A stretch of 45,460 nucleotides of DNA from a virus. The notes under the pieces were generated by a model. It worked only from the letters and a program-made list of their open reading frames with translations. It did no database searches and was not told the origin of the DNA. Of the stretch, positions 10,840-45,427 are shown one piece after another; the first letter of the stretch is position 1, and the number at the start of each line of letters is the position of its first letter. The stretch lies in the IMG/VR virus record IMGVR_UViG_3300031673_000111, positions 1 to 45,460 of that record; one strand, 5' to 3'. A program made the position numbers and the translations under genes.

Positions 10840-10878
10840 TAATATAAACTATTTAAAACAATAGTTAAATATAATTAT
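10840..10878 (+). promoter_or_regulatory. Candidate late-type promoter before the tape-measure gene
   Basis: TTATAATATAAACTATTT followed by TTAAATATAATTAT runs up to the ATG at 10879. No Shine-Dalgarno site is present. The element resembles the TATAAA-containing boxes seen before other first-in-transcript genes of this window (24681, 26528, 37057, 41233), so it is probably a phage-specific promoter giving a very short or absent leader. Confidence 0.45.
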
Positions 10879-26468: not shown

Positions 26469-26527
26469 AATTTTTTCCTTTTATAATATATTATTAGTTT
26501 ATAATAATTAATTTATAAACTATAAAT
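26469..26527. promoter_or_regulatory. Divergent promoter region with two TATAAA boxes
   Basis: On the + strand ATTTATAAACTATAAAT (26511-26527) ends directly at the ATG of the 91-aa gene and leaves no room for a leader or ribosome site. On the - strand ATTATAAACTAATAATATATTATAA precedes AAGGAA and the ATG at 26468. The boxes share the TTATAAACTA core. Confidence 0.55.
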
Positions 26528-26803
26528 ATGAACTATTCAAATAAATTTCAAGAGTTTCTTAACAACATGAAGAACCAAAACCCTCCCTTGATTGAAGTAA
26601 TACAGAAGGGATTCAGCCTTTTATTCGAAACAACTGAAGAAGTGGTGGAAAAAGTTAAAGAAAAAGTAGGCTCTAAGAAAGAAGATTGGGGAAGTTTAAT
26701 ATCAGATGATGAAGAAAATGAAGAAAATGAATGGTTGAATGAATTAGCAGAAACCGCATCCAAAGAAGCATCAGAAGAATTGGATATTGAAAATTTTAAA
26801 TAA
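26528..26803 (+). CDS. Small acidic protein with a capsid-targeting-like N-terminus
   Basis: 91 aa, Glu/Lys-rich and helical, no family recognised. The N-terminal 30 residues (NKFQEFLNNMKNQNPP then LIEVIQKGF) are alike in pattern to those of the passenger gene at 43862 (EKFESFLESLK... LIESVKKGF). Both resemble T4 capsid-targeting sequences, which start like 'M-K-x-Y-Q-E-F-I', and both contain L-I-E, which fits the (L/I)-x-E rule of the T4 prohead protease. The protein may be packaged in the head. It starts flush against a TATAAACTATAAAT box with no Shine-Dalgarno site. The packaging role is inference. Confidence 0.6.
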   Translation: MNYSNKFQEFLNNMKNQNPPLIEVIQKGFSLLFETTEEVVEKVKEKVGSKKEDWGSLISDDEENEENEWLNELAETASKEASEELDIENFK

Positions 26804-26806
26804 GAT

Positions 26807-27652
26807 ATGGTTGAGGTTAGTTATATTATTCCTGTATGTAGGATAGATTCTGACATTTTACCTCGTTTAAATGCATTAAATTTTCAAATAAATAATTTTT
26901 TGGCAATACAAAGGAATGTAAAGATAGAATTGATATTAGTAGAACAGGTAATTAAACGCCCGTATAATTTGAAAAAATACATAAATATACCCAAACATAT
27001 TTCATTTAAGCACATTGTTGTTAAATATCCCATATTTTCAAAGTCGTGGTTGTATAATGTTGGATTTAGGTCAGCAAAATTTAAGCATTGTTTTGTTGCA
27101 GAAATGGAAATATCATCTTTGTATAATGATCATTTAATTGATATAATAAATCATGTTACAAAAGAAAATAAAAACTGTTATTATGGTTGTAAGGGGGTAT
27201 TTTTTTTAGGAGAAGAATTAACGAAAAATCTTATCGATACTAATAAAGTTAGGGTAGAACAGGAAACCCGTTACAGCCAGATACACATAGGCAAGTTAGC
27301 GGGTGGATTGGTATATTTCAAAAAATGCTTCTGGATGAATAGATTGGGCGGTGCAAATGAATGTTTTTCTAATTTACTTGGTAATGATAATGAGATTGCG
27401 ATACGAACGACTGATATTGATAAAAGGTTTAAACATGAAAAGTTTAACCACGAATTGTTGCATTTATATCATCCAGTATCAAAAATGAAGAAAGCTGGAA
27501 AAAGAAGTTTAAATAGGAAAATGGTTTATTTCACCAGACGGCATTGTAAATTAATTTCACATTTTTTATCAACAAAAAAATTGGGAAATATTAAAGCTCC
27601 CCTTATGATGTTGTTCGATAATTTTAAAAAAGAGATCAATGCTATTTCTTAG
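26807..27652 (+). CDS. Glycosyltransferase family 2/7-like
   Basis: 281 aa. It starts VEVSYIIPVCR (GT2-type strand). The C-terminal acceptor/catalytic block is GGLVYFKKCFWMNRLGGANE followed by GNDNEIAIR, which fits the 'G-G-x-x...F-W-x-x-G-G-x-N-E...G-x-x-D-x-E' of GT7-like galactosyl/GalNAc transferases. The expected DxD near residue 105 reads VAEMEIS, so the metal site is altered. It starts three bases after the small acidic gene and its end overlaps the convergent 369-aa gene by 11 bases. Probably part of the dispersed glycan set. Confidence 0.65.
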   Translation: MVEVSYIIPVCRIDSDILPRLNALNFQINNFLAIQRNVKIELILVEQVIKRPYNLKKYINIPKHISFKHIVVKYPIFSKSWLYNVGFRSAKFKHCFVAEMEISSLYNDHLIDIINHVTKENKNCYYGCKGVFFLGEELTKNLIDTNKVRVEQETRYSQIHIGKLAGGLVYFKKCFWMNRLGGANECFSNLLGNDNEIAIRTTDIDKRFKHEKFNHELLHLYHPVSKMKKAGKRSLNRKMVYFTRRHCKLISHFLSTKKLGNIKAPLMMLFDNFKKEINAIS

Positions 27653-28751
27653 ATAAAAATGGATTAAGTCGGTTCCTGTCTTTTCTATCCTTTTTACCTT
27701 TTTCTTTTTCCTGTTCACGTATATGCTTTCTGATTTCCTTTTCCCTTAATTTGTTTTTCTCCCGGATAGCCTGTCTAATGGTCTTATTTCTTTCTCTTCT
27801 CTCAGGGCTTACATTTCCCTTTGCAATAAATTTTGTGATATCTTCAATTACTTTTCCTATTTTTACTTCTTCGTCATTCATTGTATTCACAGCATTTTTT
27901 CTCTGGTTGGCAGCTTCTCTGGTATCCTTTGTAATTTCATCTATCCCATCCCAGATCCCATACATGCTGTGATAGTTTTTTTGTATGTATTTCAATAACG
28001 TTTTTCCGGTCATTGGATTTTTTGGGGTATTTTCTTGGGGAACTAATCTATCACTTTTCCATGCTTTCCCTTCCACAAATATTTGCTGCATTAAAAATCT
28101 ACCACTACCTGCAACTTTTAGCAACGTTATGTGCTTGCAGTCAGCAGCCCAATTGATACATCTACTTTTGGTTTTCCCATCAGCTTCATAATACAATTTA
28201 ACGGTGTCAGGTGGGCATTGGAAAATTACCGCCCAATAATATCCTCTGGTATCTCTTGGTTCAACCATACCCAATTCATTTGAAAATAAATATCCGTTTC
28301 GTCTACCCCCTACTTCTTCAGCTTTTGTGTTGGTATCCAATTTCCAGAATGAAAGAATATTTGGGTTTCCGTGGAATATTTGGGTTTCACATATTTCCCT
28401 TGCTTCGACTTCAGACTTCATCAGAACGCAATACCACGTTTCTTCAGGCATCAGAGTAGGATTGCTGGTGTGGTAAAATATGTTTAGGGTGCCATCTATG
28501 AAGGTAATCCATTTATCATCATCCCCATTTTGAAAATCGTAATCATTGAACCAGTTTTCATACTGTTTTTGGATTTCTGTGGGTAATTCCTCAACATAAT
28601 ACATGTCTTTGAATTGTCTGGGGTTATGACCAATTTCCCTGCATTTATTTTCAATCCAGAAGTCTAATATAATATCTTTATGATCTTTCCAATTAATATT
28701 GTCGTTTAAATAATTGATTAAACGGACTCCTGCGATTTTTACTGCTTTCAT
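27642..28751 (-). CDS. Hypothetical protein with basic coiled C-terminus
   Basis: 369 aa, no family recognised. Residues 1-260 look globular with many aromatic residues (DKWITFIDGTLNIFYHTSN, ETWYCVLMKSE, RGYYWAVIFQCPP). From about 290 it is a Lys/Arg/Glu helix (RRERNKTIRQAIREKNKLRE and onward), likely a coiled coil or nucleic-acid/partner-binding arm. It is transcribed alone from the 28752-28858 divergent region. No membrane segment. Function unknown. Confidence 0.5.
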   Translation of the reverse strand: MKAVKIAGVRLINYLNDNINWKDHKDIILDFWIENKCREIGHNPRQFKDMYYVEELPTEIQKQYENWFNDYDFQNGDDDKWITFIDGTLNIFYHTSNPTLMPEETWYCVLMKSEVEAREICETQIFHGNPNILSFWKLDTNTKAEEVGGRRNGYLFSNELGMVEPRDTRGYYWAVIFQCPPDTVKLYYEADGKTKSRCINWAADCKHITLLKVAGSGRFLMQQIFVEGKAWKSDRLVPQENTPKNPMTGKTLLKYIQKNYHSMYGIWDGIDEITKDTREAANQRKNAVNTMNDEEVKIGKVIEDITKFIAKGNVSPERRERNKTIRQAIREKNKLREKEIRKHIREQEKEKGKKDRKDRNRLNPFLSKK

Positions 28752-28858
28752 AATAAATTCTTCTTCTACTCAAGTTTATATAAAAAATAAATATTTCTTT
28801 AGGGTTTTTTAAAATAATGATTTAAATTTTTATAGATGAATAAATTTTGGGATGAAAA
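28752..28858. promoter_or_regulatory. Divergent intergenic region
   Basis: This is a very AT-rich gap between divergent genes. Minus-strand TTTATATAAACTTGAG lies upstream of the 369-aa gene. On the plus strand, ATTTAAATTTTTATAGATG precedes the 166-aa gene, whose ATG has GGGAT a few bases upstream. Confidence 0.35.
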
Positions 28859-29359
28859 ATGGTAGATCAAAGATTTCTTGGGACACTTAAAAAATACGAA
28901 ACAGTACGGATTGACGATGAAATCCAAGTAAAAGTATTAATTAAACACTCAGACGAAGGCTCTGTACAGACATTTTTAAATTCCTTTTCAAAGAAATTAG
29001 GCATTGACAATGTTGAATCCTTGTTCACTTACCCCGTAAGATGGAAAAAAATGGTACTGGATACCTCTGATTTTATCCAACGAACGTACACAATTACATT
29101 CGGGGAAGTTGAATTTATTGCAAATTTGCAAGAAATTTCAATAGCACATAAATTGAACCAAGGATCAGAGTTGTTTGATTATTCCCTTCATTTTACGAAG
29201 GAAGCGAGTACAGATTTACTCGATAAATTGGTTGCGGAAGCGTATTTGGATTACAAAGAAGAAAATGATGACGGTAAAAAAGTCATAGTTGAATTTGATG
29301 TAAGCCTTGAATTAATGGAAGGCGTTAAACAACAAACAGAAGAACAAAAAATTTTTTAA
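28859..29359 (+). CDS. Hypothetical protein
   Basis: 166 aa, acidic, mixed alpha/beta in appearance, no family recognised. Predicted strands (IQVKVLIKHS, RTYTITFGEVEFIANLQ) alternate with helices, and the C-terminus is Glu/Gln-rich. An 18-base gap with AGGAGAAA leads to the next gene, so the two are co-transcribed up to the terminator at 30065. Base composition is less AT-rich than the neighbours, so it may be conserved and highly expressed; that is only a hint. Confidence 0.5.
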   Translation: MVDQRFLGTLKKYETVRIDDEIQVKVLIKHSDEGSVQTFLNSFSKKLGIDNVESLFTYPVRWKKMVLDTSDFIQRTYTITFGEVEFIANLQEISIAHKLNQGSELFDYSLHFTKEASTDLLDKLVAEAYLDYKEENDDGKKVIVEFDVSLELMEGVKQQTEEQKIF

Positions 29360-29377
29360 ACCCAAAAAGGAGAAAAA

Positions 29378-30046
29378 ATGAAAAAAACAGAAAGTAAAAC
29401 ACTGAGGGAATTTTCTTTGGTAGTTGTAAACAACCGGGGAAATACTTTTACCATTAAATATGGATATGACTTGAGCACCAAGCATCCATGTCATTATGTA
29501 AAAGCTTCGATTAATGGGAGTAACTTTTCCTCAAATAAGAAAACCTTGAGCAGGGTTCGTGCATTGGGTATCACAGCAATCAACGAATTAATTGAAGCAG
29601 TTGACACCAATGTTTCCGGCGCACCGGAAGATTACGAATCCGTGACATCCATCATTGTCAACAGTTATGTTGAGGGCAATATAGGATTTGATGAAGTCAA
29701 GGAATGTTATCGAATTACAACTGTTGATGAAGAAGAAGCATTGGGTGATTTCCTTGATTCTTATTCTGAGGCTTCCACACGCTCACAGAAGTCCCTTTTA
29801 AGGAAGTATAACAACTCCCGCAGGGAAACATTCCTAGAACGCTCAAAGAGCCTTATAAAGGGTCTGAGGAATCTTTATTTGAAGGGTGTGAGGATTAATG
29901 ATGAGCAGTATGTTCCTAAATTTGAAGGAATATTGAAAAATACATATTATCCATTCTATTACAAACGGGATGTTGATTATATCCGCAAAGCTCGTGTAAA
30001 TATTTTCACCAATGTTTTAAAAAGGAAATACAAACCTTTTAAATAA
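29378..30046 (+). CDS. Hypothetical protein
   Basis: 222 aa with AAGGAG at optimal spacing. The first 70 residues look like a small beta-rich domain followed by a Ser/Arg/Lys helix (NKKTLSRVRALGITAINELI). The rest is helical and basic, ending in RKARVNIFTNVLKRKYKPF. No family is recognised. The high content of basic residues could suit nucleic-acid binding, but no motif proves it. It is the last gene before a strong intrinsic terminator. Confidence 0.5.
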   Translation: MKKTESKTLREFSLVVVNNRGNTFTIKYGYDLSTKHPCHYVKASINGSNFSSNKKTLSRVRALGITAINELIEAVDTNVSGAPEDYESVTSIIVNSYVEGNIGFDEVKECYRITTVDEEEALGDFLDSYSEASTRSQKSLLRKYNNSRRETFLERSKSLIKGLRNLYLKGVRINDEQYVPKFEGILKNTYYPFYYKRDVDYIRKARVNIFTNVLKRKYKPFK

Positions 30047-30064
30047 TATCGGTAAAATATCAAT

Positions 30065-30098
30065 AAAAAAGGGTTGCTTTCCAAGCAACCCTTTTTTT
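30065..30098. terminator. Bidirectional intrinsic terminator
   Basis: A perfect 9-bp stem, GGGTTGCTT (30071-30079) and AAGCAACCC (30083-30091), with a 3-base loop, is flanked by A6 before and T7 after. It ends the two-gene + operon and, read from the other strand, the convergent 81-aa gene. Confidence 0.92.
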
Positions 30099-30114
30099 AT
30101 TATTTTATAAAAGT

Positions 30115-30360
30115 TTAATAGAACTTTTTTTCACGCTTAATAACGCTGAAGTTTATTTTTGCGGGTTTCTCTTTTTTTATAACCTTGGAATAATTGTAAT
30201 TTGGTTCAACCGTTTCGACTACTGTTTTTTCCAAAATTACCTTTTCGGGTGACTTTTCAGTTACCTTTTTCTTTTTACTTTTTTTGGTAGGTTTTTTGGC
30301 AGGTTTTTCTTCTACAGCCACTTCTACCACTTCTTCCATTGTTTTTTCTTCCTTTTCCAT
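30115..30360 (-). CDS. Small Lys/Glu/Val-rich hypothetical protein
   Basis: 81 aa, almost entirely charged: an acidic N-terminus (MEKEEKTMEEVVEVAVEEK), a Lys tract KKPTKKSKKKKV, and a basic tail ending KREKKFY. It is probably disordered and may be nucleic-acid- or capsid-associated. No family recognised. It starts at the 30361-30430 divergent promoter and ends at the bidirectional terminator, so it is a single-gene transcript. Confidence 0.5.
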   Translation of the reverse strand: MEKEEKTMEEVVEVAVEEKPAKKPTKKSKKKKVTEKSPEKVILEKTVVETVEPNYNYSKVIKKEKPAKINFSVIKREKKFY

Positions 30361-30430
30361 ATAATACCTGTAATTTACAATAGTTTATAAACTTTAATCA
30401 TATAATATATGTTTTTTATAGGTGGAAATT
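30361..30430. promoter_or_regulatory. Divergent promoter region
   Basis: It contains the box AGTTTATAAACT (30382-30393), a perfect palindrome of the same kind as at 24691. On the + side TATAATATATG and ATAGGTGG precede the endolysin ATG. On the - side the box is followed by ACAGG and the start at 30360. Confidence 0.5.
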
Positions 30431-31402
30431 ATGAAAGCGGAAAAAATACCAGAACAAGAAAAAAAATTTACCGATACATTGACCAATAGTAGCGGGACTA
30501 AATACACTCTTGATAAAATTACAGTGCTAGACAAATGTGAAATTCATCACATCAGACCAAGTTTTGATAGTTACTATTACAAAGAAGTGGTAGATAAAAA
30601 GAAAATCGTACTGCACTTTACGGTTGGGACTATTCGTGGTGACATGGCTTCTTTGACAAAGAAAGATAACCACATGAGCGTGTCTTATGTTATTGCTAGG
30701 AATGGAATCATATATGAATTATTTGAACCAAAATATTGGTCATATCATCTTGGTAGAGGTTCAGTTGGCGGGAATGGTTACAATTCCAAAGAAAGTATTG
30801 GGATTGAATTATCCAATTACGGCCCACTCAACGAGGTAGGATCTAATTTAGAAAGCGTTTATTCGGAAGTCGAATATACAGATTCTAAAGGGCAGAAGAA
30901 AAAAACAAAAAAAGATATTTATTGTTCTACGTCCGAAATTCAATATTTTAAGAGAGCACCTTTGAGAGGGTATGATTACTTTGCTTCATTTACAGATAAG
31001 CAGCTACTCGCAACCAAAGAATTGGTGAATTACTTAAGTAAGAAGTTTAATATTCCCAAAACGTTATTGGATGAAAAGGATCGTTACAATATATTTTCAA
31101 GTTCAACAAAAGCAAAAGAATTCAAGGGCATCTGCACTCATATCAATTTTCGTTCATCTGGTAAATGGGATATAGGTTCTCATTTTGATTGGGAAATATT
31201 TGAAGATAAAAAACCGGAACCAGTGAAGGAAATTAAAAAGGAACCAGTAGTGGTGGAAGAAATAAGACCCATTTATACTAAGGATGACAAACCTGATTAC
31301 GATATACCTGCTAAACAGGACAATAAATCTTCCAAATGGGCAATGATTATGAAGGTAGTTACTTTTATATTAGGGTTTATTAAGAAACTTAAAAAGAAAT
31401 AA
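30431..31402 (+). CDS. N-acetylmuramoyl-L-alanine amidase (Amidase_2) endolysin
   Basis: 323 aa from the ATG at 30431, five bases after AGGTGG; a GTG at 30422 is in frame but lies within that site. Amidase_2 features are IVLHFTVG (zinc ligand H62), MSVSYVIARNG (82-92), SIGIELSNYG (122-131), and THINFRSSGKWDIG with ligands H237 and D247. It cuts the MurNAc-L-Ala bond of peptidoglycan for lysis. Residues 257-300 are a Lys/Glu/Pro linker, and the C-terminus WAMIMKVVTFILGFIKKLKK is an amphipathic or membrane-touching helix with a basic end, which could help cross or disrupt the envelope. No holin is identified next to it. Confidence 0.88.
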   Translation: MKAEKIPEQEKKFTDTLTNSSGTKYTLDKITVLDKCEIHHIRPSFDSYYYKEVVDKKKIVLHFTVGTIRGDMASLTKKDNHMSVSYVIARNGIIYELFEPKYWSYHLGRGSVGGNGYNSKESIGIELSNYGPLNEVGSNLESVYSEVEYTDSKGQKKKTKKDIYCSTSEIQYFKRAPLRGYDYFASFTDKQLLATKELVNYLSKKFNIPKTLLDEKDRYNIFSSSTKAKEFKGICTHINFRSSGKWDIGSHFDWEIFEDKKPEPVKEIKKEPVVVEEIRPIYTKDDKPDYDIPAKQDNKSSKWAMIMKVVTFILGFIKKLKKK

Positions 31403-31403
31403 C

Positions 31404-32051
31404 ATGTCAATAGGCATTGTTACCTTACATACATCAGAAATTGAATGCTATTCTAAGTATACGTTACCAATATTTCAAAAATATTGCTTGGCTCACAATT
31501 ATACGCTAATTATCGGTGAACGATGTAGTGACAGAGCACCAACGTGGGATAAAATATTATTGTTGAAAAAATATCACAAATTATTTGATTATTTATTTTG
31601 GCTTGATGCTGACATGGTAATAAATAAATTAGAACATAAATTGGAAGATATAATTGAACAACTGGAAAAACCCATCGGTGTATGTGAGAACGGAACCAAA
31701 TATCGGGAATTTAATTGTGGTTCCATCGTGGTAAAAAATGATAAAAAAGTTGAAAAATTTTTAAATATATGGTGGGGACTAGGACAAAATTGGGGGCTTG
31801 AGAATCGAATTGCCCATGAACAGCAGGTATTAAACAGAATAGCATTTGTAAATAAAACCCAAAAACAAAGATGGAACTTGGATATGAATGTCGCTAATAT
31901 GTATGGTGAATTATTACAGAAATTACCGTGTAATCTTATGAACAACGCCCATAAAATATATCCAGAAAAAAATTTTGTCCATCATATGCTATGTGAGCAT
32001 ATGACAGACAAAATAAGAATAGCTAAACAAAAATACGATGAAATTGTTTAA
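31404..32051 (+). CDS. GT34-like (GMA12/MNN10-type) glycosyltransferase
   Basis: 215 aa. SIGIVTLHTSEI opens a GT-A fold. The motif DYLFWLDADMVI (about 66-77) is the D-x-D block of galactosyl/mannosyltransferases of the GMA12/MNN10 type. NCGSIVVKND follows where these enzymes recognise the acceptor. WWGLGQNW and HEQQVLN are the catalytic-side helices, and FVHHMLCEHM provides late His residues for metal. It begins one base after the endolysin stop. A truncated paralogue lies at 32613. Confidence 0.7.
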   Translation: MSIGIVTLHTSEIECYSKYTLPIFQKYCLAHNYTLIIGERCSDRAPTWDKILLLKKYHKLFDYLFWLDADMVINKLEHKLEDIIEQLEKPIGVCENGTKYREFNCGSIVVKNDKKVEKFLNIWWGLGQNWGLENRIAHEQQVLNRIAFVNKTQKQRWNLDMNVANMYGELLQKLPCNLMNNAHKIYPEKNFVHHMLCEHMTDKIRIAKQKYDEIV

Positions 32052-32551
32052 ACTGGATATACAAATGTTATTGCTATGATGCCATCATAATAACTTTGGG
32101 GTTCTTCTAAAAAGTACCTAACATTTACTTGATAAGTACCTACTGAACTAGATGGTAGATTCTCGTATTCCAGAACAAACTGAATAACGTCCCCTGCATT
32201 TCCTGTTACTACAAATTCCATAAGATCGATTATATCATCAAATCCTTCAGTTTCTGAACCAAGTATACACATGCTGTCAGCATTTCTGTATGATCCATCA
32301 TATTTTATTTGTGCCCAACCTTCTACAATACCTGTGCTGCTTCCGTAATTACTGATATCGATGTTATCAACATTTGCATAATAAATGTAAGTATCAATGC
32401 TATCAAGTCCATCTGTTGGGCAACGAACAGCCACTGTAGTAGTAGGTACAGGAGTCGTGGTTGGTACAGGAGTCGTGGTTGGTACAGGAGTCGTGGTTGG
32501 TACAGGAGTCGTGGTTGGCTCTGGTGTAGTTGTTGTTATTGGTATTCCCAT
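32048..32551 (-). CDS. Thr/Pro-repeat protein with beta-sandwich-like domain
   Basis: 167 aa from the ATG at 32551 (AAAGGAAATTT upstream). After MGIPI it has a mucin-like linker of TTTP and PVP units (residues about 6-37), encoded by four exact 18-base repeats. A roughly 130-aa domain follows (CPTDGLDSIDTYIYYANVD, IVEGWAQIKYDGSY, DVIQFVLEYENL, TYQVNVRYF), alternating strands like an Ig-like or carbohydrate-binding sandwich. It resembles a surface-exposed capsid or fibre decoration protein. The Thr-rich stem would be a natural O-glycosylation target for the neighbouring GTs; that is inference. It overlaps the end of the GT34-like gene by four bases. Confidence 0.6.
   Translation of the reverse strand: MGIPITTTTPEPTTTPVPTTTPVPTTTPVPTTTPVPTTTVAVRCPTDGLDSIDTYIYYANVDNIDISNYGSSTGIVEGWAQIKYDGSYRNADSMCILGSETEGFDDIIDLMEFVVTGNAGDVIQFVLEYENLPSSSVGTYQVNVRYFLEEPQSYYDGIIAITFVYPV
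32445..32516 (-). repeat. Four exact 18-bp tandem repeats coding PVPTTT units
   Basis: The + strand unit GGTACAGGAGTCGTGGTT occurs four times in a row (32445, 32463, 32481, 32499), followed by a degenerate fifth unit. Each encodes one hexapeptide of the Thr/Pro linker. Exact identity at DNA level implies recent expansion, so copy number may vary between relatives. Confidence 0.95.
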
Positions 32552-32612
32552 AATAAATTTCCTTTTTTGATATATTATTAGTTTATATAAGGATAAAAAT
32601 ATTTTTTTTTTT
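32552..32612. promoter_or_regulatory. Divergent intergenic region with TATA-type box
   Basis: On the minus strand TTATATAAACTAATAATATATC precedes AAAGGAAATT and the start of the Thr/Pro-repeat gene. On the plus strand, a T-run immediately precedes the truncated GT paralogue, with no ribosome site. Confidence 0.4.
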
Positions 32613-33026
32613 ATGGAAATGATTGCAATAGTCACGGTAACAACTCCTGAAATAGAAGAATATTCTAAGTATACGCTTGAAATATTTAAAAAGTATTGTT
32701 CAATGCATAATTATGATTTAATTATTGGGGATCACAATACTGATAGGCATCCATCATGGAATAAAGTTTTATTATTGAAAAAATATTACAAGAAATACGA
32801 TTATTTATTTTGGTTTGATGTTGATATAATAATTCAACAATTAGACTACAAGCTTGAAAATATAACTAAATTACTGCAACGTCCTTTTGGGATATGCAAA
32901 GATTACAGGCACAGTTTTTTAAATTGTGGTTCTATCGTAGTTAGTAATGATAGGCGTATAGAACCACGTTTTTTTGATCATTGGTGGGAACTTGGAAAGC
33001 AGTGGTTAATTACGTCCTGTATTTAG
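32613..33026 (+). pseudogene. Truncated paralogue of the GT34-like glycosyltransferase
   Basis: 137 aa that align along their whole length with the first two-thirds of the 31404 gene: SKYTLEIFKKYCSMHNYDLIIG versus SKYTLPIFQKYCLAHNYTLIIG (compared in parts), DYLFWFDVDIII versus DYLFWLDADMVI, NCGSIVVSND versus NCGSIVVKND, and WWELGKQW versus WWGLGQNW. Directly after this W the frame diverges (LITSCI) and stops, so the catalytic-side helices are missing. The D-x-D is kept. It is probably a decaying duplicate; a short functional form cannot be excluded. No Shine-Dalgarno site. Confidence 0.65.
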
Positions 33027-33073
33027 AAATTATTCAATTTTAAGTATTTATTAAAAATATATATTTAAATATT

Positions 33074-33913
33074 ATGACCGAAAAAAAGTTAACTGTTGGG
33101 ATGGCAACCTATGATGATTTTGATGGAGTTTATTTTTCAATTCAATCCATAGAGTTATATCATCCGAAAGTGTCGAAAGACATTGAATATTTAGTAATTG
33201 ATAATAACCCCGATGGAAAGCACAGTAAGGCAATACTTGATTTTTTGAAGTCGGAAGTGCCTAATAAACATAGATATATACCTTTTGGTAAAAAAATATC
33301 ATCGTTTACAAAATACAAGGTTTTTGAACTGGCGAAAACACCGTTAATTCTTTGTATGGATTCTCATGTATTTCTTGAGAAGGGTAGTTTGAATCGATTA
33401 TTGAATTATTACAAGAATCACCCTAAAACTAAAAATCTTCTCCAAGGCCCACTTGTTCGTGGGGGTTCTATATCTACCGATATGCGACCTGAATGGAGTG
33501 GTGGTATGTGGGGAACATGGAACACTGACAAAAGGGGGATATATAAAAACCAAAAACCCTTTGAAATTAAAATGCAGGGAATGGGATTATTATCATGTAG
33601 AAAAGAAGCTTGGCCACATATTAGTCAATTATTTAGTGGTTTCGGGGCTGAAGAAGGTTATATACAAGGAAAATTCAAACAAAAAGGGGCGAAAACTTTA
33701 TGTTTACCATTTCTCAGGTGGTATCACAGGTTCTATCGACCAGAAGGTGTTGCTTTTACGCTTACTTGGGAAGATAGGGTTAGGAATTATTTTATAGGAT
33801 TTGTAGAATTAGGGTGGGATGTTAAACCTGTAATGGATCATTTTAAGTGGATTGACAAAAAAAAGATGGGTAAAATACTTAATGAAGTTAAAAATAAAAT
33901 GAAACAAAAATAA
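33074..33913 (+). CDS. Glycosyltransferase family 2-like (GalNAc-T-like)
   Basis: 279 aa. It begins KLTVGMATYDDFDGVYFSIQ, a GT2 opening. ILCMDSHVFLEKG (about 96-108) takes the D-x-H form of the metal site known in polypeptide GalNAc-transferases. MQGMGLLSCRKEAWPHI and FSGFGAEEGYIQGKF give the 'G-M-x-L-x-x-R-K-x-W' and acidic catalytic block of the same group. This family adds GalNAc to Ser/Thr in eukaryotes; here the likeness is only at motif level, but a Thr-rich protein lies 500 bases away. The ATG sits right after ATATATTTAAATATT without a ribosome site. Confidence 0.7.
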   Translation: MTEKKLTVGMATYDDFDGVYFSIQSIELYHPKVSKDIEYLVIDNNPDGKHSKAILDFLKSEVPNKHRYIPFGKKISSFTKYKVFELAKTPLILCMDSHVFLEKGSLNRLLNYYKNHPKTKNLLQGPLVRGGSISTDMRPEWSGGMWGTWNTDKRGIYKNQKPFEIKMQGMGLLSCRKEAWPHISQLFSGFGAEEGYIQGKFKQKGAKTLCLPFLRWYHRFYRPEGVAFTLTWEDRVRNYFIGFVELGWDVKPVMDHFKWIDKKKMGKILNEVKNKMKQK

Positions 33914-33967
33914 AAATTTATCATAAAATCGTATATATTTTATAGTGTAATTTTTAAGGGGGTAAAA

Positions 33968-34117
33968 GTGGGTAACGAAAATTTCTACGATGACGATGAT
34001 GACGATGACGATGATGACGATGACATCACCTATAATGAAAACCGTTATAGTTTATTTGAACTACAAAACAATTGTGACGATTTTGAGTTAGAATTAACGC
34101 CAGAAGATTTTGAGTAG
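33968..34117 (+). CDS. Poly-aspartate acidic small protein
   Basis: 49 aa from a GTG preceded by an excellent AAGGGGG. Residues 8-19 are twelve consecutive Asp, encoded by mixed GAT/GAC codons, and the remainder is acidic too (NCDDFELELTPEDFE). No family recognised. Very acidic small phage proteins can mimic DNA or RNA and block host nucleases or polymerases, or bind metal; nothing here decides. Its end overlaps the TTG start of the fucosyltransferase-like gene by eight bases, so the two are translationally coupled. Confidence 0.6.
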   Translation: MGNENFYDDDDDDDDDDDDITYNENRYSLFELQNNCDDFELELTPEDFE

Positions 34118-34955
34118 AAAATTAGTATTATTTAATCGTGCAGGATTGTGCAACAGGATAGATAATATCATCAATGGGTTATTTCTGAATGACATATTTA
34201 GAAATGGTGCTTACGATATTACGTTGTTTTGGCCAATAACCCCTCATTGTGCGATAGAATACAATAAGTTGTTTGAAGAACCAAAATTCAATACTATTAT
34301 TTCAGAAGATAGTCGAGAAAAATTAAAAGAAATCAAGCAAGAAAAAACATGTGAAATTGCATTAGAAACATTTTCAATTCCAAGCAACATGTTACAGGAT
34401 AAAAAATATATAAGTAAGTATTTGAACTTATTTGTTCCTGAAAGGGATATCTATAAAAAAGCAAAGAAATTTATTGATGAAAATAATATTGATAAATCTG
34501 TATTTTCAGTTCACTTGAGAAGTTGGGAGTTCTTTTTTGAAATAGACAAAAAGAAAGCCCTTGGGGATTATGATAAAAGAAAGGGTTATTTATTAAAAAA
34601 AATACGGGAGGAAATAGCTTTGAATAGAAATATTAAAATTTTTTTGATTAGTGATTCATCGCAGGTTGAAAAAGAATTCAAAAATATATTCCCTAAAAAT
34701 ATCATCATTAAGGAAAAGAAAGCTTCTTTGGAAGTCAATGACAAAAAAGAAGAAATGATAAATGATAAAAATTATAATTTTGAGACTCATTTAAATAGAA
34801 ACGAAGAATTGGTGAAAGAAAGTTTAATTGATTTATTAATAATGTCAAAAACAAAATTTATACCGCCCAACGTTAGATCAGGAAGTTTTACAAAAACCTG
34901 TGGCCTAATGAGTAATTATTATGATTTTGATAAATTAGAGTCATATTACAGTTAA
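34110..34955 (+). CDS. Fucosyltransferase-like protein (GT23/O-fucosyltransferase superfamily)
   Basis: 281 aa from a TTG start overlapping the previous gene. LVLFNRAGLCNRIDNIINGL is the 'G-R-x-G-L-x-N-R-L' N-terminal GDP-sugar domain. SVHLRSWEFFF (about 132-142) is the H-x-R block. IFLISDSSQVEKEF (188-201) and LIDLLIMSKTKFIPP...SGSFTK are the C-terminal blocks of the alpha-1,6/O-fucosyltransferase superfamily. It would use GDP-fucose or a related donor, adding a deoxysugar to the phage-directed glycan. Donor and acceptor are inferred from family only. Confidence 0.7.
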   Translation: MSRKLVLFNRAGLCNRIDNIINGLFLNDIFRNGAYDITLFWPITPHCAIEYNKLFEEPKFNTIISEDSREKLKEIKQEKTCEIALETFSIPSNMLQDKKYISKYLNLFVPERDIYKKAKKFIDENNIDKSVFSVHLRSWEFFFEIDKKKALGDYDKRKGYLLKKIREEIALNRNIKIFLISDSSQVEKEFKNIFPKNIIIKEKKASLEVNDKKEEMINDKNYNFETHLNRNEELVKESLIDLLIMSKTKFIPPNVRSGSFTKTCGLMSNYYDFDKLESYYS

Positions 34956-40417: not shown

Positions 40418-41233
40418 TTAAATGTCACTTTGCTGTGTGTTTCGTTCAAATTGTCTCATAATTTTACTAAACAATTTTGTATTTTCGGGTATCATATTTT
40501 TTAAATTATCTATGGGTACTGTTTTGTATATTTTCGGTACAAATTTTTCTATGCCGTGTTTTTTAGAAACTATATCCCAACTATTAAATTTTGTGGTTTC
40601 TGATATATATTTGTGTATTTCTCTATTTTTAGTTTCTGTTCCTGTTTTTTTAAGATTTGTTGGGTTTTCGCACGTTATTGCATCTATAACTGCGTATTTA
40701 TCTTTCACATCTATTCCTAGCGTTCTGGTACACCAAAAATCAATACCTGTACTTAATAATTCCGGGTCGTACACGGCCATAAATTTTTCAAGCGCATATT
40801 TGGAAAAGATTGGAGTATTTATTTCAACAAAATTGGTATAGTGCATAAAAGAATTTGATATTTGTCTATTAGTTTCCCAATACATCAAACTTTTGTCATT
40901 GAAAGCTGGTTGCATGACCCATAAATCCAGCTCCATTATAATTTGGAATAATAGACGTATTTGTTGCGTTTTGATTATAATATCATCATCAATAAGAAAA
41001 ACCGCATCATATTTTTTTATTATATCATAATGTTTTTTATATACATCATAAAAATTTGGAAATTTATAATTTCTGTTAACAAAATACTTGTCTACGTGCT
41101 TTTCAAATCCGTGGTCGGTGCGGTCTCCATAAAAAGATATCCATATATCAAAATTTCGTCCTTTCCCAGATAACCAATATTTTGGGAATTTAGAAAGATC
41201 GCCCACTGATGAATAAAGTAAAAATTTTCGCAT
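40418..41233 (-). CDS. DUF707 glycosyltransferase-like protein
   Basis: 271 aa. FLLYSSVGDLSKFPKYWL, FDIWISFYGD, KFPNFYDVYKKH, YDAVFLIDDDIII (about 75-87) and WVMQPAFNDK, followed by HYTNFVEINTPIFSKYALEKF and GIDFWCT, match the DUF707 (PF05212) family block by block. The family is thought to be GT-A-like with the DDD metal site. CTTATATTATAAAT lies directly on the ATG with no ribosome site. One of three GT-like genes in the minus-strand block. Confidence 0.8.
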   Translation of the reverse strand: MRKFLLYSSVGDLSKFPKYWLSGKGRNFDIWISFYGDRTDHGFEKHVDKYFVNRNYKFPNFYDVYKKHYDIIKKYDAVFLIDDDIIIKTQQIRLLFQIIMELDLWVMQPAFNDKSLMYWETNRQISNSFMHYTNFVEINTPIFSKYALEKFMAVYDPELLSTGIDFWCTRTLGIDVKDKYAVIDAITCENPTNLKKTGTETKNREIHKYISETTKFNSWDIVSKKHGIEKFVPKIYKTVPIDNLKNMIPENTKLFSKIMRQFERNTQQSDI

Positions 41234-41250
41234 ATTTATAATATAAGTTA
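41234..41250 (-). promoter_or_regulatory. Candidate promoter abutting the DUF707 gene start
   Basis: Minus-strand TAACTTATATTATAAAT ends at the ATG at 41233, a clean example of the TTATATTATAAA element with zero leader. Confidence 0.5.
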
Positions 41251-41973
41251 TTTCTTTGTTTTTATTTTACGTATGGCTTGCTTTACATCTTTTATGTAGT
41301 TTCTATCCCATTTAGGTTTTAATAGTATTTTCCCAGAGGGTTCGATCCCTTTTTTTATTTTTTCCAATACATCCATTTCCATTTTTTTTCTCGAATTAGT
41401 ACTGATATGCAAAATAGAACCACTCCATCTGTATACGTAATGCAATCTATGATAAGGCCGTTTACTCTCGTAAACATATTTTAGGTCGTTAGGAATTTTT
41501 TGTTCAAAATCTGTGTCTTCTCCAACGTCCGTCTCTGAGTAACCACTAATTTTATTATAAAGGTTTTTTGTGAAAATTGCTTGGCCGTGGAATATATTGG
41601 TGGTTACTTCATAATGGTTACCGTCAAAATAATAAAAACCGACTGTAAATTTAGAAAATTCGGTTTTCATAAATTTCATTCTTATTGATAGACTGTGTGG
41701 TAAATAAATATCATCATCATCCCAGTTAGCAATTATGTCATAGTCTGCTGCTTCTACAGATAAATTCCTAGCGTTTCCAAGATTTCTCGCTGTTGAATTA
41801 ACTATTTTAATTTCCGGGTGTTTAAAAACTAGCTGTTGCTGTGGAAAATTATTAAAAATTACCAGTTGTTTTTTCCCTTTATAATCTTGTTTTAAGAAAC
41901 ACTTGATAGATTCTTCAACCATGTGTACCCTACCATACGTAGGACACACACAGGATATTGGTGGGTATTTCAT
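41248..41973 (-). CDS. Glycosyltransferase family 2
   Basis: 241 aa. It starts YPPISCVCPTYGRVHMVEES (GT2 donor loop). DIIANWDDDDIYLPHSL (about 80-96) gives the D-x-D metal site. ETDVGEDTDFEQKI supplies the E-D catalytic-base region, and HRLHYVYRW closes the active site as in GT2 proteins. Soluble, no membrane helices. It is followed by the DUF707 gene on the same strand, so the two may act on the same glycan. AGTATAAACACC lies about ten bases before the start. Confidence 0.85.
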   Translation of the reverse strand: MKYPPISCVCPTYGRVHMVEESIKCFLKQDYKGKKQLVIFNNFPQQQLVFKHPEIKIVNSTARNLGNARNLSVEAADYDIIANWDDDDIYLPHSLSIRMKFMKTEFSKFTVGFYYFDGNHYEVTTNIFHGQAIFTKNLYNKISGYSETDVGEDTDFEQKIPNDLKYVYESKRPYHRLHYVYRWSGSILHISTNSRKKMEMDVLEKIKKGIEPSGKILLKPKWDRNYIKDVKQAIRKIKTKK

Positions 41974-41987
41974 AATTGGTGTTTATA

Positions 41988-42239
41988 CTATTTCCTTATG
42001 CATTTCCATTTTGGGGTTGGTTCGTACCATTCTTGTGTATAATTGCACCAGTGGAGTTTCCAATCTTCGTAATATTTCCAATCAACAATATCCCATGAAT
42101 TGAATACTCTTTTATACCCCATATGTTCGGGAAAATTTGTTGCTTTTCTTACTACTTTGTTGGCGTAACGCTTAAAAAATCTTTTGTAGCGTGAGCCATA
42201 AGTATCAACCATCCAAGGTTTACGATATGATCTAGACAT
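41988..42239 (-). CDS. Small basic phage protein
   Basis: 83 aa, AGGAG before the ATG. MSRSYRKPWMVDTYGSRYKR is a start I associate with small conserved phage hypotheticals; the whole protein is rich in Trp, Tyr, Lys and Arg. It may bind nucleic acid. No function can be given. It lies just upstream of the GT2 gene with a 14-base gap and is probably co-transcribed. Confidence 0.6.
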   Translation of the reverse strand: MSRSYRKPWMVDTYGSRYKRFFKRYANKVVRKATNFPEHMGYKRVFNSWDIVDWKYYEDWKLHWCNYTQEWYEPTPKWKCIRK

Positions 42240-42314
42240 GATTTTATCTCCTGTGTTATTTTAAATCACATCATATGAACCTCCCGTTGATTGTTATTTA
42301 TAGTTTATAAATTT
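42240..42314 (-). promoter_or_regulatory. Candidate promoter region of the 83-aa gene
   Basis: Minus-strand AAATTTATAAACTATAAATA (42295-42314) contains both the palindromic TTTATAAA and a perfect T4-late-like TATAAATA. It overlaps the 3' end of the 68-aa gene. A 70-base leader with GGGAGG and then AGGAG precedes the start at 42239. Confidence 0.5.
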
Positions 42315-42511
42315 CTTTTAGCAATCATTTTCTTGGCTTCTCCAACCAATTTTCTAAATGGGCCTTTACCATATTGCAAGTCCGTATAGTGTTTCATGTG
42401 GTCATCGTGCCAATCTTCAATGAAGTCAATAAACATTTTTTCAACTTCCGTTATTGGGAGTTTGGTTTTATTTTCATCAAATCCAATTTTTAATTTATCG
42501 CTGTTATCCAT
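42305..42511 (-). CDS. Small hypothetical protein
   Basis: 68 aa, helical, charged: a middle EVEKMFIDFIEDWHDDHMKH with several His/Asp and a C-terminal GPFRKLVGEAKKMIAKRNL. No family recognised. TTTATATTTATAAAATAGGATTTTC precedes the ATG, giving a TATA-type box plus AGGA. It lies just downstream of the tRNA-Leu gene on the same strand. Confidence 0.5.
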   Translation of the reverse strand: MDNSDKLKIGFDENKTKLPITEVEKMFIDFIEDWHDDHMKHYTDLQYGKGPFRKLVGEAKKMIAKRNL

Positions 42512-42557
42512 GTTGAAAATCCTATTTTATAAATATAAATTATTTTTGAAAAAAAAA

Positions 42558-42642
42558 TGGTAGGCATGGGGAGACTTGAACTCCCACGCATTTAAGCACC
42601 ACATCCTAAGTGTGGCGGGTCTACCAATTCCCCCACATGCCC
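42558..42642 (-). tRNA. tRNA-Leu, anticodon UAG
   Basis: Read on the minus strand: acceptor GGGCATG paired with CATGCCT, then A and an encoded CCA. D arm with GGTAGA, anticodon arm CCACA-CTTAGGA-TGTGG (anticodon TAG), a long class II variable arm around TGCTTAAATGCG, and T arm GGGAG-TTCAAGT-CTCCC. It is a complete leucine tRNA for CUA/CUN codons. It follows the 281-aa GT-like gene by four bases. Confidence 0.93.
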
Positions 42643-42646
42643 ATAA

Positions 42647-43492
42647 TTATAATTTACTGGCTTTAACTGCATTATATATACAATAATTAGAAATTATTTT
42701 TTTATTTAGTTTTCTTAGATTTACTTTGTTATAATCCCCGGATGCAAATTTAAATTTGGAAAATCCCTCTTCATTACTACTAGTATGCCATGAATGAATA
42801 TGGGGGTGTTTCCATATGCTATTTTTTGAAGTGCTAAAGAAATCTAATTTATCTGGAACCATTTTTACTTTATTTTTCATCAAATGGTTTATTGCTATTT
42901 CTGAAGCATACATTGATGATACTGGACGATACCAAGAAGGCCACTCACCATTACCATTTTTAAAATAGTTTTTTAAAATATGGTACAACACTTTAGTTGT
43001 AAGTGAGCCAACATTTACAACATCGTTGCCAGATCCGTACCAAGTTGAACCAATATTGTAGATATCATAATGGTTCAAATTAAGTTCTTTTGATATTTTT
43101 TTTATATTGGATTTTACTTTAATATCATTATTATATCCACCCCCACCAGTAAAAAACTTTTTGCCTTTGATGTGCCATTTTTTGAAAGCTGGTGTGAGAA
43201 AAACATCAAGATCTGTTTTGAGCACTTCCTTATATTTTCTTATAAAATTTGCTTTTTGCTTTGAAAATATTTCAATTGAGTTGATGTAGGGATAATTTAT
43301 TTTATTATTTTCTCTGTGTCCAATAATGATACAGTCGTTATCTATTTTATGTTTAATTTTCCACGCACAAAATACGATTAAATCAGTATCTTCATATAGT
43401 TTTAAATTTTTCCAACAATTATAAAGGATTTTATATTCCACAAAAAAATGGGGGTGTTTTGGGACAAATACTACGATTGCTCTAGGTTTCAT
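42647..43492 (-). CDS. GT-A-like glycosyltransferase-related protein
   Basis: 281 aa. RAIVVFVPKHPHFFVEYKIL opens an alpha/beta fold. YKEVLKTDLDVFLTPAF (about 89-105) holds a D-x-D preceded by a strand, as in GT-A enzymes and DUF7164-like proteins. NIGSTWYGSGNDVVNVGSL and KNGNGEWPSWYRPVSSMYASE follow in positions used for donor and acceptor binding. It sits between tRNA-Ser and tRNA-Leu in what looks like one transcript. The general GT link is plausible; the precise family is not certain. Confidence 0.5.
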   Translation of the reverse strand: MKPRAIVVFVPKHPHFFVEYKILYNCWKNLKLYEDTDLIVFCAWKIKHKIDNDCIIIGHRENNKINYPYINSIEIFSKQKANFIRKYKEVLKTDLDVFLTPAFKKWHIKGKKFFTGGGGYNNDIKVKSNIKKISKELNLNHYDIYNIGSTWYGSGNDVVNVGSLTTKVLYHILKNYFKNGNGEWPSWYRPVSSMYASEIAINHLMKNKVKMVPDKLDFFSTSKNSIWKHPHIHSWHTSSNEEGFSKFKFASGDYNKVNLRKLNKKIISNYCIYNAVKASKL

Positions 43493-43575
43493 ATTATTTT
43501 AGGGTCTATGAATATTTTTTTAACAACTTACCAAGTAATATTTCCCATATGTCATTAGTTTATACAAGATTCCAG

Positions 43576-43660
43576 CGGAAGAGACAGGATTTGAACCTGC
43601 AAGGGACGTTAATCCCGCTGCCGTTCCAAGGCAGTGCCTTACCAATTAGACTACTCTTCC
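43576..43660 (-). tRNA. tRNA-Ser, anticodon GGA
   Basis: Minus-strand acceptor GGAAGAG with CTCTTCC, discriminator G (as in serine tRNAs). Anticodon arm CTGCC-TTGGAAC-GGCAG (anticodon GGA), a long variable arm GGGATTAACGTCCC, and T arm GCAGG-TTCAAAT-CCTGT. The 3' end is not followed by CCA, so the host must add it. It reads UCC/UCU codons. Confidence 0.92.
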
Positions 43661-43769
43661 TTTGTTTTTTACGTTTTTTCCCATTTTTTATAAAAAAAAT
43701 GATATTTTGAAAAGACTTATTGACAGCCGTGTTGTCACGGAAAAAATATCTCTAACAATTAAACATTTA
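43661..43769. other. Intergenic spacer left of the IS1-like element
   Basis: No gene is seen here. It holds TTGACA, a short hairpin CCGTG-TTGT-CACGG not followed by a T-run, and the left target-site copy AACATTTA at 43762-43769. Joined to the sequence right of the element, it would restore a spacer between tRNA-Leu(GAG) and tRNA-Ser. Confidence 0.5.
43762..43769. repeat. Left copy of the target-site duplication
   Basis: AACATTTA occurs here and at 45295-45302, directly flanking the IS1-like element. Eight bases is within the usual range for IS1 insertions (mostly 8-9). Confidence 0.7.
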
Positions 43770-43772
43770 AAG

Positions 43773-43796
43773 GGGTGGGGTACTTCATTGTTGCTA
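43773..43796 (+). repeat. Left terminal inverted repeat of the IS1-like element
   Basis: The 24-base segment starts GGGTGGGGTACTTCATTGTT and ends GCTA. It matches the right end at 45268-45291 (reverse complement) with four mismatches. Confidence 0.8.
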
Positions 43797-43824
43797 ATGA
43801 CCAAAATATAAAGATTTTTCTCAG

Positions 43825-43835
43825 ATTATAAACTA
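43825..43835 (+). promoter_or_regulatory. Phage-type promoter box of the passenger gene
   Basis: ATTATAAACTA, identical in core to boxes at 26483-26505 and 43555 in the phage proper, lies 27 bases before the passenger ATG. AGGA follows with correct spacing. The passenger gene therefore appears wired to phage transcription. Confidence 0.45.
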
Positions 43836-43861
43836 ATAGAAACACTAATTAGGATATAATC

Positions 43862-44218
43862 ATGAATAAAAAAGAAAAATTTGAATCTTTTCTTGAATCA
43901 CTGAAAGGAAATGGAGAGGATAAGCTGATTGAATCTGTTAAAAAAGGTTTTCAGGTATGTTATGAAAACAATCCTATTGGGCAAAGACAGAGAGATGAAG
44001 CATTTTGGGAAGAAACTCACTCAGAAATGGAAGAAGAATCCCCTGTGGTTGAAGAAGAAGTGATTGATATAAAGGGACACAAAGTTTATTTACTTCACTA
44101 TGATAGTGGCAGAACTCAAGCATGGGTAAAAGGAATAGGTAATATTGCTTCACTTGAATCTTGGGAAGGTATGTCAAGAGAAGACTTTCTGAAAAAGGTT
44201 GAATCTAAATTACCTTAA
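43862..44218 (+). CDS. IS passenger protein with capsid-targeting-like N-terminus
   Basis: 118 aa, AGGA seven bases before the ATG. The N-terminal module KKEKFESFLESLK then KLIESVKKGFQVCYE matches the pattern of the 26528 phage protein (KFQEFLNNMK, LIEVIQKGFSLLFE), including the L-I-E that would suit a T4-type prohead protease. The middle is acidic (EEESPVVEEEV). The last 50 residues look like a small beta domain (HKVYLLHYDSGRTQAWVKGI) with a final helix. It lies inside an IS1-like element, convergent with the transposase (four-base overlap). Probably a phage gene captured by the element, or the element's own fitness gene. No known family. Confidence 0.65.
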   Translation: MNKKEKFESFLESLKGNGEDKLIESVKKGFQVCYENNPIGQRQRDEAFWEETHSEMEEESPVVEEEVIDIKGHKVYLLHYDSGRTQAWVKGIGNIASLESWEGMSREDFLKKVESKLP

Positions 44219-45189
44219 ATAGTATTGTAAAGGAACTCTATACCAACGGGTTCGTTCAAAATCCCTAAATGCATGGCGGGTGTCATCTTCACTCGCCTTT
44301 TTCTTTCCCCATCCCCAATTTTATACATCTTCTCTAAAAAGTAGTTCCCAAAGAACTTATATATCGATAGGTGAGCATTGAGCATTTCCATGCTCTTACA
44401 AATATGCCATGTTTTGCGTCTGAGCATTGATATGTTAGCTCTCATACAGGCTATGGAATTGTTAATACTGAACAGCTTTTTCTTGTTTTTCTCCTTAGAA
44501 GCATCATATTCAAGGTGTACACCATTTTCCCCGAATATTTCAGCCATGTAACTGGGATAGGTTTTCTTTTTATCAGATTCCACCACAATTCTACCTTTGG
44601 GTTTCATTTTCCGACATGCGCCCAGTACTCTCTTAATGTATCTGTGACGGAGTTTAATCTGATCCTTGTATTCATCCTCATAGTCATCCTTAAGATAGGG
44701 ATATTGGCATCTGGAAGTGGTTCTGACGGACATAACATCAACGATGAAATGACTGTCTACTTCGACTACGGCAGGGAGTGTTAAAGTATGAACACGGTTC
44801 TGTTCCATGGATTCAAATTCATCAAACTGGAATCTGGGCTTGGGTGACCTCATCCACTTGTCCATGTATTCCTTATGGAACATTTCACATACATTAGCTA
44901 ACCAGAGAATCTTTCTCTGGACAGTCTTTTTGGTGGTACGATGAATCAGGGCTGTTTTTCGGACACCTACACCCACGGAAACTATCTCCATGACCTTTTT
45001 ATTGAGGTCTGGGCGTTTATGGCGATAGGTGGGGTGGAAAGTCTGGTCACTGAAACTTTTAAAACATTGGGTGCATTTATATCTCTGGACTATCTGATGA
45101 TTCCTTTTTCGTTGAAAACGACCATCTTTCTTGATTTGTCTTGACCCACAGTGTGGACAATTCGATATTTTGGCTAGTATGTGTCTCAT
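44215..45189 (-). CDS. IS1-family-like transposase, InsA and InsB domains in a single frame
   Basis: 324 aa from the ATG at 45189; a GTG at 45207 is in frame but inside the promoter-like box. Zinc ribbon C11/C14 and C39/C42 (CPHC, CTQC) followed by a helix-turn-helix with VGVGVRKTALI (72-82) matches InsA of IS1. FQFDEFES (D123), VVESDKKKTY (D206) and the end block INNSIACMRANISMLRRKT then CKSMEML match InsB. IS1 makes InsAB by frameshift; here the two are fused. In the end block IS1 has I-E-R-x-N; this copy has I-N-N, so the third catalytic acid appears replaced by N243. GTTTTATATTATAAGT abuts the ATG with no ribosome site. Confidence 0.8.
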   Translation of the reverse strand: MRHILAKISNCPHCGSRQIKKDGRFQRKRNHQIVQRYKCTQCFKSFSDQTFHPTYRHKRPDLNKKVMEIVSVGVGVRKTALIHRTTKKTVQRKILWLANVCEMFHKEYMDKWMRSPKPRFQFDEFESMEQNRVHTLTLPAVVEVDSHFIVDVMSVRTTSRCQYPYLKDDYEDEYKDQIKLRHRYIKRVLGACRKMKPKGRIVVESDKKKTYPSYMAEIFGENGVHLEYDASKEKNKKKLFSINNSIACMRANISMLRRKTWHICKSMEMLNAHLSIYKFFGNYFLEKMYKIGDGERKRRVKMTPAMHLGILNEPVGIEFLYNTI

Positions 45190-45205
45190 ACTTATAATAT
45201 AAAAC
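45190..45205 (-). promoter_or_regulatory. TATA-type box abutting the transposase start
   Basis: Minus-strand GTTTTATATTATAAGT ends at the ATG at 45189. It is nearly the same as the box at 41234-41250 before a phage gene. Confidence 0.45.
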
Positions 45206-45267
45206 ACTACTATGACAAATGGTGTCTTTGGATTATAAGTATTTTATTATAAGGACTTACAGAAGAA

Positions 45268-45291
45268 TAGCACCATTATAGTACCCCACCC
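45268..45291 (-). repeat. Right terminal inverted repeat of the IS1-like element
   Basis: Reverse complement begins GGGTGGGGTACTATAATGGT and ends GCTA; 20 of 24 positions equal the left end. Confidence 0.8.
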
Positions 45292-45294
45292 TTT

Positions 45295-45302
45295 AACATT
45301 TA
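45295..45302. repeat. Right copy of the target-site duplication
   Basis: AACATTTA, identical to 43762-43769. Confidence 0.7.
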
Positions 45303-45345: not shown

Positions 45346-45347
45346 AG

Positions 45348-45427
45348 TACCGGGAGGGGGAGTCGAACCCCCAGACAAAATCACAGCCCTCTCATGGCTG
45401 CTGCTTTACCAGTTTGCATACCCCGGC
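45348..45427 (-). tRNA. tRNA-Leu, anticodon GAG
   Basis: Minus-strand acceptor GCCGGGG with TCCCGGT (two G-T pairs) and discriminator A. D arm TGC-AAACTGGTAAA-GCA, anticodon arm CAGCC-ATGAGAG-GGCTG (anticodon GAG), short class II variable arm TGATTTTGTCT, and T arm GGGGG-TTCGACT-CCCCC. No encoded CCA. It reads CUC/CUU leucine codons, complementing the UAG tRNA at 42558. Confidence 0.88.

Follow-up and report, generated by a model that had tools for sequence, protein, structure and literature searches.

The window (the whole viral contig analysed here, IMGVR_UViG_3300031673_000111, 45,460 nucleotides) carries a transposable unit of two genes enclosed by inverted ends at 43770-45294. The unit has inserted twice, independently, at unrelated places in two phages, with target duplications lying outside both genes, which shows that the two genes move together as a whole. 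Judging from the sequence comparisons described below, it is probably an element that lives in T4-like phages, and its cargo would be a gene for an internal-head protein under phage late control.

Structure of the element and its insertion site

The ends of the element read AARGGGTGGGGTACT, and an exact 8-bp repeat lies directly outside them (Table 1). When end pairs of similar distance were drawn at random from this window, an inverted match of at least 20/27 was found in 0 of 400,000 pairs, and an 8-bp flanking repeat was found in 24 of 400,000. A sequence-only reading had proposed an 8-bp repeat on both sides, an insertion between tRNA-Ser and tRNA-Leu, and a 118-aa plus-strand gene inside the element, all of which are present. 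It had also proposed inverted ends matching at 20 of 24 positions; the ends are real, with 22 matches over 27 positions, but the count was off, as 19 of the first 24 positions match. The 118-aa ORF and the transposase ORF are convergent, tail to tail, and their stop codons overlap in TTAA.

Table 1 Features of the element, its flanks and the resident tagged gene in the window
Feature	Position	Strand	Evidence or remark
tRNA-Ser(GGA)	43575-43660	-	One flank of the insertion
Left target-site duplication, AACATTTA	43762-43769		Exact repeat of 45295-45302; abuts the inverted ends
Left terminal inverted repeat, AAGGGGTGGGGTACTTCATTGTTGCTA	43770-43796	+	22/27 against right end; nearly identical to left end of second copy
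Late-promoter-like box before tagged gene, TATAAACTA	43827-43835	+	Enriched; conserved in second element copy
Tagged gene in element, 118 aa	43862-44218	+	ORF; N-terminal tag common to other phage genes
N-terminal tag, 36 residues, capsid-targeting-like, predicted two-helix hairpin	43862-43969	+	Tag alignment; model
L-I-E, codons 22-24, candidate prohead-protease site	43925-43933	+	L-x-E here in all 11 tags of window and G001
Variable C-terminal domain, four strands and a helix (predicted)	44045-44215	+	Single-sequence AlphaFold2, pLDDT about 85-92 over residues 61-118
Transposase, 324 aa (ATG) or 330 aa (GTG 45207)	44215-45189	-	IS1-type Zn-ribbon and HTH N-terminus, diverged catalytic domain, D123, D206, N243
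Predicted RNA hairpin over transposase start codon	45176-45256	-	MFE -16.1 kcal/mol, z -3.8
Right terminal inverted repeat	45268-45294	-	22/27 against left end
Right target-site duplication, AACATTTA	45295-45302		Exact match to left copy
tRNA-Leu(GAG)	45347-45427	-	Other flank of the insertion
Resident tagged gene, 91 aa	26528-26803	+	tblastn E 7e-6; outside element; behind TATAAACTA box at 26514

An additional tRNA-Leu gene is located at 42558-42642. The empty site in the spacer between tRNA-Ser and tRNA-Leu would read TTAAACATTTATTTAAGGGTC. Neither such a site nor a relative sharing this locus was found; the flank beyond tRNA-Leu matched no phage record, and a pattern of the tRNA-Ser anticodon arm, used in the search for an empty site or a relative, had no match in viral contigs. 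The window phage encodes a tail-tube match (phrog_45, E 4e-9) and a thymidine kinase (phrog_592). By eye, the window also seems rich in glycosyltransferase-like and sulfotransferase-like ORFs among its structural genes (266-5143, 21487-22344, 26807-27652, 31404-34955, and 40418-43492).

A second copy in another phage

A DNA scan with the inverted-end pattern GGGTGGGGTACTNNANTG matched 18 contigs. One of them, the T4-like phage contig IMGVR_UViG_3300009514_000034 (53,938 bp, hereafter G001), has a second, inverted end 1.65 kb from the first with a transposase in between. This copy of the element occupies 10347-12007 and is flanked by an exact 8-bp duplication of its own, TTTAATAA, at 10339-10346 and 12008-12015. 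Its transposase is 65% identical to that of the window (E 4e-147), and the order of parts is the same, namely left end, TATAAACTA, plus-strand gene (here 158 aa), convergent transposase, and right end. The other 17 contigs had no second end or no transposase match in the stretches inspected and were dismissed as chance matches. The earlier proposal that the whole unit had moved, cargo included, is thereby upheld, and the possibility that no second copy shares its ends is excluded.

Only the inverted-end DNA pattern led to this copy; single-protein searches with either gene returned no close relative in viral contigs or genome contigs. Plasmid and phage collections held no close relative of the transposase and no relative of the tagged gene. 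Furthermore, scans with the motif RANISMLRRK, the two-copy alignment, and the tag alignment recovered only G001 again plus a third phage, IMGVR_UViG_3300031673_012906 (G007). The element is thus known from two copies and the comparison covers three phage contigs in all, which are uncultured and probably incomplete.

The 92 bp from the left end to the start codon align between the two elements (z 8.7), but this leader scarcely matches the sequence ahead of resident tagged genes (z no higher than about 2.3). We therefore infer that the promoter and the tagged gene were already present in the common ancestor of both elements. The alignable stretch starts at the left end, includes the promoter box, and extends to codon 35, and the C-terminal domain appears to have been exchanged, or to have diverged beyond recognition, since the two copies separated.

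In G001, the element sits at the very end of a homing-endonuclease ORF and leaves it unbroken. The endonuclease gene (phrog_3339, E 1e-117; L032 8805-10343) directly follows the major head protein gene, and the two mobile elements stand back to back, with the insertion at the stop codon of the endonuclease.

A diverged transposase of the IS1/IS1595 superfamily

The transposase matched the NCBIfam IS1 model NF033558 at residues 11-99 only (E 1.6e-10), and its 41.3 bits do not reach the equivalog cut-off of 100 bits. It also matched NF050000, the Zn-binding domain shared by IS1 and IS1595 (E 1.2e-5), and the transposase family phrog_1191 (E 2.6e-9). With hhalign, 87 columns were aligned to the IS1 transposase of Riemerella (E 4e-9), which identifies an InsA-type Zn-ribbon and HTH, while alignments to two IS1595 proteins covered the Zn-ribbon and the following HTH region only. 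The Zn_ribbon_IS1595 model gave E 0.43, short of its cut-off, and no match to an IS1595 catalytic domain was obtained.

The catalytic half contains insertions and has diverged too far to be compared by profiles. A full-length alignment with the Riemerella IS1 protein, weak in this half, places D123 and D206 at the first two acidic residues. At the third catalytic position both copies have Asn243 in place of Glu, seven positions before a conserved Arg (R250); this placement follows the ungapped reading of the Riemerella alignment. The AlphaFold model of the transposase, built with few relatives, reached a pLDDT of 36. Comparison of the two transposases gave pS 0.85 and pN 0.23 (pN/pS about 0.28), so the protein has been kept functional under selection. 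By the sequence criteria tested, the enzyme is a diverged member of the IS1/IS1595 superfamily that falls in neither curated family, and it most likely works like a DDE transposase of that superfamily. The label "IS1-like" given to it by the sequence-only reading accordingly fits the N-terminal Zn-ribbon and HTH but does not extend to the catalytic half or to the family score.

An RNA hairpin is predicted over the transposase start codon (Table 1), and could protect the element when transcription of the tRNAs reads through. In the matching stretch of the second copy, z is only -1.7 and the hairpin is not evident.

A family of tagged phage genes

The 118-aa gene had been taken for an unexpected passenger, since IS1 elements usually carry no cargo. 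This description did not survive the comparison: on sequence grounds the gene is a phage-type gene rather than foreign cargo, because its 36-residue tag and its TATAAACTA box are those of the phages' own genes and because tagged genes exist without the element. Over the first 36 residues, the 118-aa protein of the window and the 158-aa protein of the G001 element are about 75% identical, and their remainders align only in scattered residues. Nine tagged genes were found in G001, comprising the element copy and eight resident genes (13352, 13825, 14172, 25959, 26279, and, on the minus strand, 29412, 29893, and 33712). The window has two tagged genes and G007 has three; no transposase was detected in G007.

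An all-against-all BLASTP of the C-terminal parts of the 11 tagged proteins of the window and G001 gave no match better than E 0.008. The mean pS of the tags was 0.69 and the mean pN 0.16 (nine ungapped tags, 36 pairs); the conserved thing is therefore the protein tag and not recently copied DNA. The resident tagged genes were also considered as decayed copies of the element. This was rejected, as no remnants of the ends rose above background within 300 bp upstream or 2.2 kb downstream of them.

In the predicted structure of the 118-aa protein, the tag forms two helices (residues 3-14 and 20-36), followed by a linker and a compact domain (61-118). Fold searches with this model returned only generic beta-meander or propeller-blade matches, with Z at most 5.4, and we read no function from them. 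A phmmer match of residues 72-101 to CylK (E 0.0016) was not accepted as homology, being weak and involving the same kind of beta structure. For the tag itself, tblastn found no match in phages and PHROGs none better than E 0.03, in searches to which 36 residues lend little power. Among the libraries searched, the tagged gene family appears undescribed.

Several of the resident tagged genes of G001 are arranged head to tail in twos or threes, their starts overlapping or abutting, and each has a different C-terminus (L033 5959-13712; L032 13352-14549). In the tagged protein of the G001 element (L029 1631-2107), the C-terminal part looks like two tandem repeats of ~40 residues (LYKELVSEYG..NEVKRAID and LQDLSEEYG..RKIRHALD). 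One tagged ORF of G007 (L042 8261-8848, minus strand) has its tag from about residue 54, after a basic stretch, and a TATAAACTA box 34 nt before its ATG.

A candidate late promoter ahead of the tagged genes

We counted 9 copies of the box TATAAACTA in the window and 11 in G001, where dinucleotide content predicts 1.2 for each, an enrichment of about eightfold. Of these 20 copies, 18 stand 5-63 nt ahead of an ORF on the same strand that is 60 aa or longer. They precede the portal gene (3451), ORFs of 1330 aa and 772 aa, resident tagged genes, and the tagged genes of both elements, and the box is also found ahead of tail genes in these phages. The late promoter of T4 is TATAAATA. By analogy, we infer that late transcription in this phage group starts from TATAAACTA, in which case the tagged gene would be made together with virion parts. 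Some boxes stand only 5-7 nt before a start codon, which counts against this reading. The resident tagged gene of the window starts 5 nt past its box, and a divergent box (26503, minus strand) serves a 268-aa ORF on the opposite strand.

Capsid targeting and competing explanations

In T4, the internal head proteins carry a short N-terminal capsid targeting sequence (CTS) of 10-19 residues that docks on the prohead core and is removed by the protease gp21 after the motif L/I-X-E (PMC9026906). Once mature, these proteins are unrelated to one another, and many of them enter the host by ejection (PMC9026906). One of them, IPI, keeps a restriction enzyme of the host from attacking the phage DNA (PMC9026906). 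The tags described here have an invariant L-x-E at residues 21-24 (11/11 in the window and G001). G001 is a T4-like phage by its T4-type head cluster, which consists of a portal (phrog_213, E 8e-70), a head maturation protease (phrog_207, E 1e-36), and a major head protein (phrog_138, E 9e-72). The head protein carries LPE-S at 49-51, within the region in which T4 gp23 is cleaved, and the 6 kb downstream of this cluster contain the element together with three of the resident tagged genes of G001. These comparisons suggest, with somewhat better than even confidence, that the product of the tagged gene is an internal head protein bearing a capsid-targeting-like propeptide. In G007, a 70-aa ORF beside the tRNA cluster (50656-50868, minus strand; L044 10656-10868) resembles the N-terminal propeptide of a gp23-type head protein (LIEKWSPVLEL...LLESQ), and is perhaps another stand-alone or mobile head-targeting segment.

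Under the mechanism we propose, the tagged gene would be transcribed late from TATAAACTA, alongside virion parts, and the tag would act like the CTS of a T4 internal protein by docking the protein on the prohead core. A gp21-type protease would then cut the tag at the invariant L-x-E, leaving the variable domain in the head, from which it would be ejected into the next host. By carrying such a gene, the element might offset the cost of its presence in a lytic phage.

A less probable reading, though one with a real share of the probability, is that the element carries a phage gene whose tag is put to some other use, either docking to a replication or assembly complex or forming a regulator-binding helical hairpin, and that the protein is not packaged in the head. 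It draws on the tag having no detectable relative among known phage head proteins. This counts against capsid targeting, as does the length of the tag, which exceeds that of the T4 CTSs. Some tagged genes of G001 also lie outside the head cluster (25959-33712), and the last conserved glutamate is preceded by C-F/Y, a misfit to L/I-X-E. This use of the tag is nevertheless harder to square with a common tag that joins unrelated C-termini and keeps L-x-E invariant, in a phage that has a T4-type protease and three tagged genes adjoining its head cluster.

Two further alternatives were weighed. The element might be an ordinary transporter insertion sequence that twice, independently and by chance, captured a nearby phage gene that benefits neither the phage nor the element. 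These phages have many tagged genes, which are therefore likely neighbours of insertions, and insertion sequences with passenger genes are known (PMC9330008). Yet two captures would not be expected to leave the copies alignable from the left end through the box to codon 35, and selection acts on the tag and the reading frames, which are intact; we regard this account as improbable. We consider it very unlikely that the second gene serves transposition as a regulator or accessory factor and that the resident tagged genes are remnants of old insertions. A tagged gene does occupy the same place, in the same orientation, in both copies of the element; but the resident genes lack remnants of the inverted ends above background, G007 has its three tagged genes with no detected transposase, and the C-termini are wholly different between elements whose transposases are 65% identical. 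On balance we favour a head-packaged protein carried by a phage-dwelling element.

Comparison with known mobile elements and head proteins

The element resembles the IS1 and IS1595 families in the N-terminal Zn-ribbon and HTH, the putative DDE-type motif order, and the 8-bp target duplication (8 bp in both copies here). It differs from them in its single 324-aa ORF, the insertions in the catalytic half, and Asn as the putative third residue, as well as, apparently, in its ends, and in its second gene and its occurrence, known only from two phage contigs. The terminal inverted repeats of IS1 are GGT-type ends, and those found here read AARGGGTGGGGTACT; the ends of the plasmid IS1 copies that we fetched were not reliably delimited. 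A passage in PMC12888890 cites Siguier et al. 2009 on IS1595.

Transporter insertion sequences are a known class of insertion sequences with passenger genes (PMC9330008), exemplified by the tIS66 element ISPa75 with fosZ (PMC9330008, PMC12888890). As in that class, one pair of inverted ends encloses a transposase and a passenger, here one that is probably not needed for transposition, and each of the two copies has its own 8-bp duplication outside both genes. The passenger is different in that it is a phage-type tagged gene with a phage-type box, residing in lytic-type T4-like phages.

Several genes with a common short N-terminal segment and L-x-E joined to unrelated mature parts recall IPI, IPII, IPIII, and Alt of T4 (PMC9026906), as does the presence of a T4-type protease and head genes in the same phage. 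Compared with these T4 proteins, the tag is longer and shows no detectable kinship to known head proteins, packaging is putative, the copies are more numerous (nine in 54 kb), and one rides on a transposon. Giant phages such as SPN3US and phiKZ have families of head and ejection paralogs whose copy number varies, some with identical N-terminal propeptides cut at A/S-x-E (PMC5694885). The tagged genes resemble those families in varying copy number and in the likeness of their putative propeptides, whereas the paralogs share sequence beyond the propeptide and, in the passages of PMC5694885 consulted, none is reported on a transposon.

Transporter insertion sequences and the T4-type capsid targeting of unrelated proteins are thus known separately. 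In the literature, we found no report of a transposon of T4-like phages whose passenger bears the phages' own promoter box and N-terminal tag.

Implications

Regardless of the capsid reading, the tagged genes form a new multi-copy family, and searching uncultured T4-like phages for the tag is a way to single out candidate injected proteins. If the tag is a capsid-targeting propeptide, the cargo of this transposon would be built for the phage and not for the bacterium, being expressed late, packaged, and perhaps ejected, and the element could be spreading such genes between viruses. We tentatively suggest, at somewhat less than even confidence, that a phage-adapted transposon family ferries genes of head-packaged, host-injected proteins between T4-like phages, combining a fixed late promoter and targeting tag with an exchangeable effector domain. 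If true, this would show concretely how internal head proteins, which are known to be varied, are gained and shuffled by T4-like phages. The persistence of a transposable element in a lytic phage, despite strong selection against dead weight, would be explained as well.
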